Shown one piece after another: positions 3,419 through 7,312 of a stretch of 40,404 nt of DNA. Source of the DNA: Firmicutes bacterium UBA4049 (GTDB lineage: Bacteria > Bacillota > Desulfotomaculia > Desulfotomaculales > Nap2-2B); NCBI GenBank assembly GCA_002382755.1, contig DFZT01000040.1:1-40404 (forward strand). Direction: 5' to 3'. Each line of letters begins with the position of its first letter. The first letter of the stretch is position 1. Under the pieces are notes generated by a model. The model saw only the letters and a program-made list of their open reading frames with translations. It was not told where the DNA came from and did not search any database. Position numbers and translations under genes: made by a program.

Positions 3419-4411
3419 TTATAGATTAGCTATTTTTTTCAAGGGGAATAGTGTCGAAGTATGTGTTTTATTCACAAGGTCATCCAATGTTTTAAATGTA
3501 TACCCCTGTGACTTGATTTCGGTTATCGACTGATCAAGTGAATTTAGATTGTCTTTGGTTACAGTATGCAAAAGTACCAAAACTCCGTTATGCAAATTAT
3601 CCATTAAAGTCTGGTGAGCCTCTTGCGAACCGCCGGGCAGAGGTATCCAGTCGGCTATTGCAAAGCTCCAAAAAATGGTATAGCAACCAAGATTCTTTGT
3701 TTCAGAAAGGGTTCTTTCACTGTATTCCCCTTTTGGAGGGCGGAAATAAACCATCTTCTTGACTCCCGTTAAAGCGGTGAAATCAGAAGCTAACTTTTTA
3801 ATCTCTTCTTTGATCTGCTCATTTGTCAAATCGGGCATAGAGGGATGGTTTACCATATGATTGCCGACGATGTGTCCTTCCCGAATCATTCTTTTAACAA
3901 GTTCCGGCTGTGTTTTAAGGTAATGCCCGTTAATAAAGAAAGCGGCTTTAACATTTTGCTTTTTAAGAATATCTAAAATTCCCGGTGTATATCCGTTTTC
4001 ATATCCAAGATCAAAAGTAAGATAAATGGCTTTTTTATCCGGACTGCCTATCCAATAGGCATTATTCCGTGCTAAAGTCTGTAAGATACTCACCGGCATC
4101 TCAGGCTGAAGGTGATCCCGATTTCTTACTACTCCCCAGCCGTATTTTTTATTAGACAGGTTGCCAACCTCGGAAGACGCAGGCATGTCTTCCCTGGTTG
4201 CCGGTTGTTCAAGCTTCTGGTTAGAATAATTATTTTGACGTGATTCGTCCTTGGGGTTAGTTTTCGGGGAAAAAATTTCCCGGCTTGTCTGCTTGATGGT
4301 TTGTTCAGTCTTTAAACTGTCTTTTACGGAAAAATATATATTCTTGCCCGCATAGCCGGTAATCAAAATAACTGCCAGTATCCCTGTAAAAATTAAAACG
4401 GTTTTTTTCAA
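3419..4411 (-). CDS. pdaA: PdaA-like polysaccharide deacetylase (spore cortex type), membrane-anchored
   Basis: This is a NodB-fold metal-dependent deacetylase. In B. subtilis, PdaA deacetylates N-acetylmuramic acid as the step before muramic delta-lactam formation in spore cortex. The PdaA-style first motif TFDLGYENGYTP is present (TFDNGYENG in B. subtilis), followed by the metal motif GNHMVNHP, the RPPKGEYSE motif and the C-terminal LLHTV motif. One N-terminal hydrophobic segment (VLIFTGILAVILITGYA) anchors it outside the membrane, followed by a polar linker of about 80 residues that makes it longer than the 263-aa B. subtilis protein. I place the start at TTG 4411-4409. GGAGGT lies 8 bases upstream of it and falls inside any longer reading from TTG 4429. 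The length is then 330 aa. No partner gene lies beside it. Confidence 0.8.
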   Translation of the reverse strand: MKKTVLIFTGILAVILITGYAGKNIYFSVKDSLKTEQTIKQTSREIFSPKTNPKDESRQNNYSNQKLEQPATREDMPASSEVGNLSNKKYGWGVVRNRDHLQPEMPVSILQTLARNNAYWIGSPDKKAIYLTFDLGYENGYTPGILDILKKQNVKAAFFINGHYLKTQPELVKRMIREGHIVGNHMVNHPSMPDLTNEQIKEEIKKLASDFTALTGVKKMVYFRPPKGEYSERTLSETKNLGCYTIFWSFAIADWIPLPGGSQEAHQTLMDNLHNGVLVLLHTVTKDNLNSLDQSITEIKSQGYTFKTLDDLVNKTHTSTLFPLKKIANL

Positions 4412-4512
4412 GTACTTAGACCTCCGCAAGAAAAATGAATTTATAATTATTCTTTCAGATTTTATCCTGCGCTATTACTGTTATGGTGTTAATGCAAGGG
4501 ATTGCAGTATTT

Positions 4513-4543
4513 AAGCCCGGTACTTGCCGGGCTTCGGTTTTTT
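4513..4543 (+). terminator. Intrinsic terminator without an obvious upstream gene on its strand
   Basis: An 8-bp perfect stem, AAGCCCGG (4513-4520) with CCGGGCTT (4527-4534), has a 6-base loop and is followed by six T at 4538-4543. It would stop plus-strand transcription. The gene to its left reads away on the minus strand, so it has no obvious client. It may shield the riboswitch-controlled unit that starts at 4564, or end an unseen short RNA. Confidence 0.6.
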
Positions 4544-4563
4544 ATAACCTGCCGATACTTTTC

Positions 4564-4592
4564 TTGACATAAATTCTATGATGGCATAAAAT
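4564..4592 (+). promoter_or_regulatory. Sigma-A promoter of the riboswitch / P-type ATPase unit
   Basis: A consensus -35 TTGACA (4564-4569), an optimal 17-base spacer and -10 TAAAAT (4587-4592) predict transcription from about 4599, immediately before the aptamer. Confidence 0.85.
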
Positions 4593-4599
4593 ATATTAA

Positions 4600-4685
4600 A
4601 TAGAGCAGGCGATACATCCTTGCCAGTGGTGTGTGGGGCTGGGCCGGTTTACCGGCAGCAGGTAAAAACAAACCTGTGGGACTAT
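4600..4685 (+). ncRNA. NiCo (czcD-type) transition-metal riboswitch aptamer
   Basis: The segment carries the conserved blocks of the NiCo riboswitch as I remember them. AGCAGGC is at 4604-4610, followed by a 7-bp hairpin (about 4612-4636). GGGC then lies within GCTGGGCCGG, next comes a GCCGG-TTTA-CCGGC hairpin, then GGCAGCAGG, and finally CTGTGGGAC at 4674-4682. The ends ATAG (4600-4603) and CTAT (4682-4685) close a P1 helix. This class binds Co2+ and Ni2+ cooperatively through a four-way junction, and Fe2+ has also been proposed as a ligand. Its 3' strand is shared with the terminator at 4670-4707, so metal binding should prevent terminator formation and switch on the cation ATPase downstream. 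The call rests on motif order and helix pairing by eye, without a covariance-model search. Confidence 0.85.
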
Positions 4686-4707
4686 TAATAGTCGCCACAG
4701 GTTTTTT
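4670..4707 (+). terminator. Riboswitch expression platform: intrinsic terminator
   Basis: AAACCTGTGG (4670-4679) pairs with CCACAGGTTT (4695-4704). The inner sequence GACTATTAATAGTC (4680-4693) is itself a palindrome that extends the stem, and a T-run follows to 4707. The 5' arm and inner arm include the aptamer's CTGTGGGACTAT, so aptamer and terminator are mutually exclusive. This predicts a genetic ON switch: ligand present, read-through into the ATPase. Confidence 0.88.
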
Positions 4708-4816
4708 ATATCTTATAACGTAGTTCAAATGACAAAATGTTTTGAGGTGATTTGTCATCGCAGAAGAAAAAGCTGAAAACCCATCTTTACAGGGCTTAAC
4801 TGATGAGCAGGCTAAA

Positions 4817-7312
4817 ATGCTACAGGAGCAGTTCGGCAAAAACGAACTGACAGACAAGAAAAAAGAAAGCTTCTTTATGAAGGCGCTTCATATTGTCTTG
4901 GAGCCCATGTTCCTGCTTTTAATTATATCAGCTATCATTTACTTTATATTGGGCGAACCCCGTGACGGCGCAATAATGCTTATTTTCGTATTTGTTATTA
5001 TCAGTATAGACGTTATACAGGAATGGAAGACGGACAAAACCTTAAATGCGCTCAAAGACTTAACGGCGCCGCGCAGTAAAGTAATACGGAATGGGAAAGA
5101 GCAAATAATTGCAAGTGCGGATTTGGTTCCGGGTGACTTAATGATCGTTGCGGAAGGCGAGAAAATTCCTGCCGACGGAGAGATCATTAGGGAAAGTGAC
5201 CTATGTATCGATGAGTCCACACTTACCGGGGAAGCTGAGGGCGTTTGGAAAACTGCCGCCGCCGGCGCAAGCTTTGACAGTTCGGAATACTGGCGCAAGG
5301 ACCACTGTTACGCGGGAACAATGGTTATCCAGGGCAGCGCCGTAATCCGGGTGAAAAAGATAGGAGCGGCAACAGAGTACGGTAAAATCGGCTCCAATAT
5401 AGCATCTGCTGTAGAAAGCCCCACTCCTTTGCAAAAACAGACAGGCCAGCTTGTTAATTTCAGTGCGGGGATTGCCGCTGTCCTGCTGGTACTGGTTGGC
5501 ATAATTACGTATTTCAATATTCCCGACCATACATTTAAAGATAGAATTATTGAAAGCATTCTCGCTGGAGTAACTCTTGCGATGGCCATGATACCGGAGG
5601 AATTCCCTGTTATTCTAACGGTATTTTTATCTTTGGGAGCATGGAGGCTGGCAAAAAAACAATCTTTAGTCCGCAAGCTTCCTTCAGTTGAAACTTTAGG
5701 GGCCGTATCCGTTCTGTGTGTTGATAAGACGGGTACAATCACAATGAATCAAATGACTGTACGTGAAACTTGGGCTGCAGACGGCAATGCCGTTGCTTTA
5801 TGTGAATACATGGGGCTTGCCTGTGAAGCAGAAACCTATGACCCAATGGAAAAGGCGATGCTGATACACTGCGAAAATCTTGGCATTGCACGCAGCCATC
5901 TTTTTGGCGGCAGATTGATTACGGAATATCCTTTTACCAGTGAACTAAAAATGATGGGGCATGTTTGGAACCACGACGGTAAGATTATCATTGCGGTCAA
6001 AGGATCCCCCGAAAGTGTTTTTAAAATCTGCAGTATGTCAGGGGCAGAATACAGGCAGTCGGAAGAGAAACTGGCTGAAATGCAGAAGCAAGGTCTGCGT
6101 GTTATTGCCGTCGGCACTATGAATTTGGACAGTGGAGATAAAATTCCTGCCGTAATTACCGGCTGCAGTTTAACATTTAATGGTCTCGTAGGACTGGCCG
6201 ACCCTCCCAGGGATTCTGTGAAAGAAGATATCAAGAAATGCAATAAAGCGGGTGTCAGAGTAGTTATGATAACCGGTGACAACGGAATCACGGCAAGCAG
6301 CATAGCAAAGCAGATAGGCATGCTGAACAGCGATAAAATTATCACCGGTAACGAACTGGACCGGATGAGCGATGAAATGTTACGAGACAGGGTATGTAAT
6401 ATTAGTATTTTTTCCAGAGTTATTCCCGAGCACAAAATGAGAATCGTCAAGGCTCTTAAGGAGAACGGCGAAATCGTAGCCATGACGGGCGATGGGGTAA
6501 ACGATGCTCCCGCCCTTAAAAACGCGGATATTGGAATTGCCATGGGTAAACGCGGATCTGAGGTGTCCAGGGAAGCCGCCGATTTGATTTTAATGGACGA
6601 TAATTTTTCGACCATTGTAGATACTATAAAAGATGGCAGAAGAATATATGATAATATCAGGAAAGCAGTGGGCTATGTTTTTACAATTCACATTCCTATA
6701 GCCTTAGGCGCCCTGATGGCGCCGTTTTTAGGCATCAACCCTGCCAACTTGCTCTTATTGCCGGTACATGTAGTGCTTTTAGAACTTGTTATTGACCCAA
6801 CCTGCTCTATCGTATTGGAACGCCAGCCTGCAGAGCATAACATCATGGAACGAAGGCCAAGAAGCCCGAAAGAAAATATTCTTCCTCCCGGAACATTTGT
6901 GAAAAGCATTTTACAGGGACTTTTTATTTTTGCCGCTTCTTTTATTACATATTTTGTGTTACTCCGGCAAAACCCCGGTAATGCTGCCCTGGCGAGAACC
7001 ATGGGGATCTCGGTGATCATCATGGCAAACTTGTTTTTAGTCCAGGTAAATAGTTCTAACTATGACTCTGTTATTTATTCGATGATCCGCCTGGCCAAAG
7101 ATAAAGTGATGTGGTTTGTATCTGCGGGTACTGTGGCAGGCCTTTTATTAATACTTTATACACCTCTTAGCGGAATCCTAAAGCTGGCGCCGCTTTCTTT
7201 GGGTCAACTATTTTCGGCGGCCGGTATTGCAGCGGTATCGGTGTTATGGTACGAAATCGTAAAGATTTTGAAGAAACAAAGGGCTTCTAGCCGGCAATTG
7301 GCAATTAATTAA
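4817..7312 (+). CDS. P-type cation-transporting ATPase (P2-like, PEEFP subgroup), probable metal exporter
   Basis: This is an integral membrane pump with all the P-type signatures, numbered from ATG 4817. They are TGEA (137-140) in the actuator domain, PEEFP (260-264) in membrane helix 4, phosphorylated Asp303 in DKTGT, KGSPE (395-399) for nucleotide binding, TGDN (487-490), and GDGVND (558-563). It resembles Ca2+-ATPase-like pumps in layout. However, it has PEEFP instead of the usual PEGLP and a membrane-helix-6 motif DPTCS with a cysteine, so calcium is not assured. The NiCo riboswitch upstream suggests export of Co2+, Ni2+ or Fe2+. The reading frame stays open upstream to 4751 and encodes a conserved-looking N-terminus (GLTDEQAK just before the ATG). 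GAGGTG at 4744-4749 is well placed only for an ATC codon at 4757-4759, so the true protein may be about 20 residues longer. Confidence 0.93.
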   Translation: MLQEQFGKNELTDKKKESFFMKALHIVLEPMFLLLIISAIIYFILGEPRDGAIMLIFVFVIISIDVIQEWKTDKTLNALKDLTAPRSKVIRNGKEQIIASADLVPGDLMIVAEGEKIPADGEIIRESDLCIDESTLTGEAEGVWKTAAAGASFDSSEYWRKDHCYAGTMVIQGSAVIRVKKIGAATEYGKIGSNIASAVESPTPLQKQTGQLVNFSAGIAAVLLVLVGIITYFNIPDHTFKDRIIESILAGVTLAMAMIPEEFPVILTVFLSLGAWRLAKKQSLVRKLPSVETLGAVSVLCVDKTGTITMNQMTVRETWAADGNAVALCEYMGLACEAETYDPMEKAMLIHCENLGIARSHLFGGRLITEYPFTSELKMMGHVWNHDGKIIIAVKGSPESVFKICSMSGAEYRQSEEKLAEMQKQGLRVIAVGTMNLDSGDKIPAVITGCSLTFNGLVGLADPPRDSVKEDIKKCNKAGVRVVMITGDNGITASSIAKQIGMLNSDKIITGNELDRMSDEMLRDRVCNISIFSRVIPEHKMRIVKALKENGEIVAMTGDGVNDAPALKNADIGIAMGKRGSEVSREAADLILMDDNFSTIVDTIKDGRRIYDNIRKAVGYVFTIHIPIALGALMAPFLGINPANLLLLPVHVVLLELVIDPTCSIVLERQPAEHNIMERRPRSPKENILPPGTFVKSILQGLFIFAASFITYFVLLRQNPGNAALARTMGISVIIMANLFLVQVNSSNYDSVIYSMIRLAKDKVMWFVSAGTVAGLLLILYTPLSGILKLAPLSLGQLFSAAGIAAVSVLWYEIVKILKKQRASSRQLAIN

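Follow-up and report, generated by a model that had tools for sequence, protein, structure and literature searches.

The leader at positions 4564-4707 of a stretch of 40,404 nucleotides (the window, meaning the whole of the DNA analysed) lies in front of a P-type ATPase gene and raises the question of whether it is a working metal-sensing switch, and, if so, which metal it answers to and what kind of pump it controls. A sequence-only reading had proposed a NiCo-type riboswitch with a promoter, the NiCo blocks, pairing P1 ends and an intrinsic terminator, and all of these parts are present at 4564-4707; the comparison suggested with the Rfam NiCo model was strongly positive. We put the probability that a NiCo-family riboswitch governs a transition-metal exporter here, via regulated transcription termination, at roughly 0.9. 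The features on which the argument draws are the following.

4564..4592, + strand: sigma-70-type promoter, TTGACA (4564-4569), a 17-nt spacer and TAAAAT (4587-4592), 11 of 12 consensus matches
4591..4686, + strand: NiCo riboswitch aptamer RF02683, 68.7 bits against a gathering score of 37, E 5.6e-14
4600..4606, + strand: 5' strand of P1 (A4600-G4603 and C4606, partner 4680-4685), from the Rfam structure line and covariation
4658..4677, + strand: P4 hairpin GCAGGU...ACCUGU, whose 3' strand (4672-4677) is common to the terminator, from the Rfam match and covariation
4680..4685, + strand: 3' strand of P1 (G4680 and C4682-T4685), common to the terminator, from the Rfam structure line and covariation
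4670..4704, + strand: intrinsic terminator hairpin AAACCTGTGGGACTA-TTAA-TAGTC-G-CCACAGGTTT, 15 pairs and one bulged base, from folding and covariation
4680..4693, + strand: 14-nt perfect palindrome GACTATTAATAGTC within the terminator, from a palindrome comparison of leaders
4702..4707, + strand: T6 tract of the terminator, its first three Ts paired in the computed fold, from sequence and fold
4744..4750, + strand: Shine-Dalgarno-like GAGGTGA, from the sequence
4757..4759, + strand: ATC, a possible non-canonical start of the ATPase 6 nt past the Shine-Dalgarno-like site, from spacing and the homologue L052
4757..7312, + strand: open reading frame of a P2-like P-type ATPase with E281, H645, E676, D680 and C683, numbered from ATC 4757

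The aptamer match covers the full length of the Rfam covariance model (positions 1-96), and exceeds the gathering cut-off by 31.7 bits; no other NiCo match in the source genome assembly (1.8 Mb, 101 contigs, 92.9% complete) reaches E 0.001. Like other members of RF02683, the leader unites such a full-length match with P1-P4, G-rich blocks, a terminator over the 3' strand and a transporter gene downstream; unlike the usual form, its P1 reads ATAG/CTAT in place of ACTG/CAGT. The four-helix P1-P4 core is seen both in the computed fold and in covariation over 69 leaders, and the window carries both G-rich blocks, GGGC and GGGAC, found in 74 and 73, respectively, of 74 leaders compared. Four Gs, presumably within these blocks, are given a metal-holding role in the accessible portion of PMC7689651. 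Taken alone, the leader is an ordinary further copy of a known riboswitch class, and the added value lies in comparison with its relatives.

Promoter-like sites of this score number one in 4400-4830, against 0.9 +/- 0.9 in shuffled sequence; as the promoter alone is thus within chance, the case for it is made by its position and by its counterpart in the congener L053, which has the same location and an 18-nt spacer. Transcription is expected to start at about 4599-4600, at the 5' end (foot) of P1, and most of 4591-4599, a segment aligned to unpaired positions of the model, would then lie outside the transcript.

The segment 4670-4710 folds at -20.7 kcal/mol (z -6.46), which none of 200 shuffles equalled; the hairpin was found by direct folding and was not listed by a consensus terminator scanner. 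The energy of the aptamer fold alone is unremarkable (z -1.16, with 23 of 200 shuffles equally good). The computed folds depend on the length of the RNA: up to 4690 it forms P1 and the P2-P4 hairpins, and up to 4712 the terminator, with the strand 4672-4685 common to the terminator and to the aptamer (P1 and P4). This overlap, together with the covariation of both folds in 69 leaders, upholds the earlier proposal that the terminator reuses the aptamer 3' strand and that the two folds are exclusive. The same reading had called the alternative fold unusually strong, which did not survive comparison, the terminator ranking 54th of 74 leaders by energy, weaker than the median of -23.45 kcal/mol. 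Its sole unusual trait is the palindrome: perfect palindromes of at least 14 nt occur in two of the 74 leaders, one of them the window. A NiCo terminator at L101:1506-1626 contains a 36-nt perfect palindrome.

By a stricter rule, 60 of the 74 leaders have a hairpin that overlaps the 3' strand of the aptamer and runs into a T-rich tract; by a T-tract rule relaxed after the 14 misses had been inspected, all 74 do. We assessed covariation in 69 leaders (alignment A2), leaving out L066 (Ns), L083, L084 and L092 (identical to L081) and the low-scoring L104. Two-sided changes affect 8 of the 15 terminator pairs, with 96.0% of cells paired, and 17 of the 26 aptamer pairs, with 91.5% of cells paired. 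None of 500 shuffles reached the covariation score of either fold, and controls with slid partners scored lower, a comparison that favours both folds insofar as the terminator structure was taken from L055, one of the set, and the aptamer structure from the Rfam alignment to the window. Two of the Rfam-derived aptamer pairs are poor, being non-standard in 66 of 69 leaders and in 29 of the 56 with letters there. Complementarity of one set of nucleotides to two alternative partners has been maintained, as a switch requires. In the window, P1 (ATAG/CTAT) and the terminator arm (TAGTC) depart together from the common ACTG/CAGT and TGTT, and likewise in L053.

The gene behind the switch had been called a P-type ATPase, and at the level of the superfamily this stands, with PF00122, PF00689 and PF00702 above cut-off and DKTGT in the translation; its placement within the superfamily needed refining. 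The 831-aa ORF from ATG 4817 scores best among NCBIfam models with the PMR1-type Ca2+ ATPase TIGR01522 (518.3 bits, below the cut-off of 798.3), and it also falls below the cut-offs of the P2A Ca2+ ATPase equivalog TIGR01116 (434.6 against 703.4) and of the P1B heavy-metal ATPase model TIGR01525 (245.2 against 346.25). We therefore describe it as P2-like; its ion-site signature is distinct. Among solved proteins its nearest relatives are the Listeria calcium-transporting ATPases lmo0841 (432.6 bits, residues 12-840 aligned), which we take to be LMCA1. Compared with these, the window protein has His for Asn in M5, Glu for the first Asn of M6 and Cys for Pro in M6, and keeps the M6 Asp; the M5 Asn and the M6 Asn..Asp are presumably the ion-site residues of Ca2+-ATPases, so that in place of the P2A Ca2+ pattern one finds His, Glu and the retained Asp. 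Solved structures searched at 1e-100, using a profile that spanned only 476 positions, gave no match, and a literature search combining PEEFP with ATPase found no paper. Among the 20 of 185 plasmid records listed, the matches to the ATPase are partial, with a best coverage of 57% at 66.2% identity.

The signature E281, H645, E676, D680 and C683 is invariant in all 80 proteins read, namely the window and 79 of 80 homologue loci (L118 is without a long open frame). We further picked 20 homologues by hand from the match list in 199 genomes. Among the eight at mid-distance (40-69% identity), all seven that could be read have E-H-E-D-C, one being cut short; the 12 distant ones (33-36% identity) all have the Ca2+-type E-N-N-D-P and none has E-H-E-D-C. 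These residues make the window ATPase a probable transition-metal exporter.

Out of 298 relatives of the ATPase the best 80 were kept, and 73 of these have a NiCo match at the gathering score in front of them (19, 17, 19 and 18 per 20), with 98-375 nt between the aptamer end and the ATPase match; these 80 loci are non-independent, as they include four identical leaders and some contigs that also occur in the class and phylum NiCo surveys. Two of the seven misses are explicable: Ns cover the aptamer of L052, leaving its 3' end readable, and L086 has a 5'-truncated NiCo remnant; the other five (L077, L078, L100, L117 and L127) showed no NiCo by eye in the 420 nt upstream. The ATPases of L077 and L100, at 71 and 67% identity, come from assemblies named Bathycorpusculum, which is presumably archaeal; they could reflect gene transfer without the switch, or a binning error. 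Identical leaders occur in L081, L083, L084 and L092, whose four genomes bear different genus names; recent transfer or contamination may be the cause. Among the mid-distance homologues, 6 of 8 have NiCo at the gathering score, the misses being L136, whose contig ends after 234 nt of upstream sequence, and L132, with no match in about 600 nt; before the distant homologues there was none in 12, with 393-621 nt upstream searched. The yybP-ykoY Mn2+ riboswitch is likewise a metal riboswitch found ahead of P2-type pumps, but none of the 80 close ATPase loci or of the 20 further ones has a match to it at the gathering score, which sets loci of the window type apart from those with that switch. As in Listeria, where NiCo is described with a PfeT-like or ZosA-like P-type ATPase in the accessible portions of PMC7689651 and PMC6985202, the NiCo leader of the window precedes a P-type ATPase; the Listeria enzyme is called P1B in the former source, whereas that of the window is below the heavy-metal cut-off (245.2 vs 346.25).

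Viewed from the side of the riboswitch, NiCo occurs at E 0.001 in 19 of the 113 class genomes surveyed and in 99 of 398 genomes drawn from the phylum. In 51 loci, comprising all 23 class loci (the window included) and the 28 best-scoring new loci of the phylum, the gene behind NiCo is this type of ATPase in 20 (in L051 the identity is only 39%, across 214 residues), a cation diffusion facilitator in 24 (in L011 behind another small ORF) and neither in seven. Six of these seven loci (L012, L014, L017, L023, L042 and L043) have a small conserved His-rich protein of 65-72 aa downstream of NiCo, followed in five of the six by a gene that is Ser/Thr kinase-like by eye; L022 has none of these. The accessible portion of the NiCo literature holds no mention of such His-rich proteins. 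Since NiCo also precedes cation diffusion facilitators and His-rich proteins, the neighbouring gene does not point to one particular metal.

The 4564-4707 leader is best read as an ON switch induced by metal, in which comparison of leaders supports the structural steps and the metal-dependent ones are inferred. In the absence of metal, the nascent RNA would complete the 4670-4704 hairpin and transcription would halt in the T tract. Fe2+, Co2+ or Ni2+ bound by the four-helix core would let P1 and P4 retain the 3' strand 4672-4685, which would block the terminator and allow the pump to be made; with His, Glu, Asp and Cys where Ca2+-type enzymes have Asn, Asn, Asp and Pro, the pump would then export the metal.

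Which metal this is bears on a question disputed in print, where Ni2+/Co2+ and Fe2+ are both advanced as the NiCo ligand, as far as the accessible text of the papers goes. The lineage of the window presumably comprises clostridia-like anaerobes by way of life, and we lean slightly towards Fe2+ as the physiological ligand there. Within the accessible portions of the sources, PMC7689651 gives in vitro affinities for Co2+, Ni2+, Zn2+, Fe2+ and Mn2+ and argues that Fe2+ and Mn2+ alone are sufficiently available inside cells, a metalation calculation favours Fe2+ (PMC9434800) and a review lists NiCo as an Fe2+ riboswitch (PMC11477304). A real riboswitch whose physiological ligand is strictly Ni2+/Co2+ and not Fe2+, with the ATPase as a Ni/Co exporter, is a serious contender that we rate somewhat short of even: the reporter work in the accessible part of PMC7917058 found a selective Co2+/Ni2+ response, and the small proteins behind six of the 51 NiCo loci, being His-rich, could bind Ni2+ or Co2+. 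Against it stand the reported Fe2+ response and the argued scarcity of Co2+ and Ni2+ in cells (PMC7689651 and PMC9434800, as accessible), and the His/Glu/Asp/Cys signature does not discriminate between Fe2+, Co2+ and Ni2+. The ligand might be approached through the pump, as a group of ATPases with a distinct signature, most of whose best homologues stand behind NiCo, offers a route to it via their substrate.

Two further explanations would depart from a regulated transition-metal exporter altogether. A pump for Ca2+ (or Mn2+), with NiCo control reflecting a broad divalent-metal stress, would fit the calcium-transporting nature of the best solved relatives of the ATPase and its best NCBIfam model, PMR1-type though below cut-off; we hold it to be unlikely, as the changes of M5 Asn to His and M6 Asn to Glu and the added Cys are invariant in 80 of 80 proteins, and the distant homologues, which keep the Ca2+-type residues in 12 of 12, have no NiCo at the gathering score in the 393-621 nt searched. 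Still more improbable, by our estimate, is a decayed or never-regulating leader, a structural match without a working switch, to which the odd start codon of the ATPase and the lack in the window of a 5' block common to most related leaders might point. The congeners L004 and L006 share the minimal leader in front of an ATPase of 85% identity that begins with ATG, P1 and terminator have changed together, and the score lies far above the cut-off, all of which speaks against decay.

The 5' block just mentioned, TTTGCACTG or a close form, starts 13-42 nt before the Rfam start in 69 of the 74 leaders by pattern, and in 70 with a variant in L103 recognized by eye; it is absent from the window, L053, L104 and L128. 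It also precedes, by eye, four NiCo copies linked to cation diffusion facilitators (L025, L036, L044 and L047). The form ATCTCTTTGCACTGCAT, seen for example in L068 and L081, is complementary to CAGTACAAA, the conserved 5' start of the NiCo model, to which Rfam assigns no pairing. A promoter with at least 9 of 12 matches lies upstream of the block in 62 of the 69 block leaders with enough upstream sequence, a count made without a shuffled control, and for 60 of the 62 promoters the distance from the end of the -10 hexamer to the block is 10-15 nt, which probably places the block near the extreme 5' end of the transcript. In this the riboswitch of the window differs from most ATPase-linked copies: it starts at P1, and its promoter leaves no space for the block. 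As the -10 hexamer overlaps the first bases of the model in the window and L053, the block and most of the unpaired 5' positions would go untranscribed there, leaving a minimal riboswitch.

The block may form an additional helix, putative P0, in which UUUG-C-ACUG at the transcript 5' end would pair with CAGU-A-CAAA and stack on P1. We examined it in 62 of the 74 leaders (alignment A3), which excludes the four without the block (the window, L053, L104 and L128), L066 and L072 (short upstream), L083, L084, L092, and L120 (similar, not identical, to L119), and also L079 and L121, two leaders with poorly pairing blocks that are evidence against P0. The arms pair in 97.4% of cells with only two two-sided changes, and a C-A mismatch inside the helix is invariant in 62 of 62; out of 500 shuffles, 8 reach the covariation score and 29 the percentage paired. 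P0 being almost invariant, covariation supports the helix weakly. By RNAfold, 15 of 62 leaders give P0 a mean probability above 0.5 when folded at aptamer length; at full length 2 of 62 do. A further ATCTC/GAGAT helix, which would form a pseudoknot, was tabulated without controls. We rejected a DNA operator as the sole cause of the TTTGcACTG/CAGTaCAAA inverted repeat, because the block lies at a variable 13-42 nt before the aptamer and, in the long class of leaders, a covarying hairpin fills the gap; the covariation score of that inserted hairpin is reached by none of 500 shuffles, but its number of pair types by 262 of 500.

We give even odds to the joint proposal that the E-H-E-D-C pumps are a separate subfamily of transition-metal exporters, with Fe2+ the likely substrate, and that P0 forms in most ATPase-linked NiCo copies. 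Were the subfamily separate, the substrate of the pump would help to settle the ligand of the riboswitch. Were the proposal true as a whole, the lineage of the window would be a natural P0-less version and isolated aptamers without P0 might misreport affinity. If the 5' block, which the Rfam structure does not include, is transcribed, some aptamer constructs may lack part of the RNA; the naturally block-less leader of the window is a ready control.

The start of the ATPase is odd: past the stop at 4748, the first ATG, GTG or TTG in frame is ATG 4817, and the conserved N-terminus begins upstream of it. The internal ATG 4817 is disfavoured as the true start because this upstream N-terminus is conserved and the homologue L052 is without an ATG there. 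L052 keeps ATC-GCA with one base fewer between, which brings a GTG in frame as well. Over the 80 loci, 71 have ATG with a Shine-Dalgarno-like site, three have TTG, three have none and three were not read. The missing standard start in the window possibly reflects a one-base assembly difference or a non-canonical start; with none in frame with the conserved N-terminus, expression of the ATPase from this assembly is not assured. Upstream of the riboswitch, where no + strand ORF of at least 80 aa among those listed ends nearby, a terminator-like hairpin with a T run occupies 4513-4543 (+ strand), between a divergent deacetylase gene and the riboswitch promoter.
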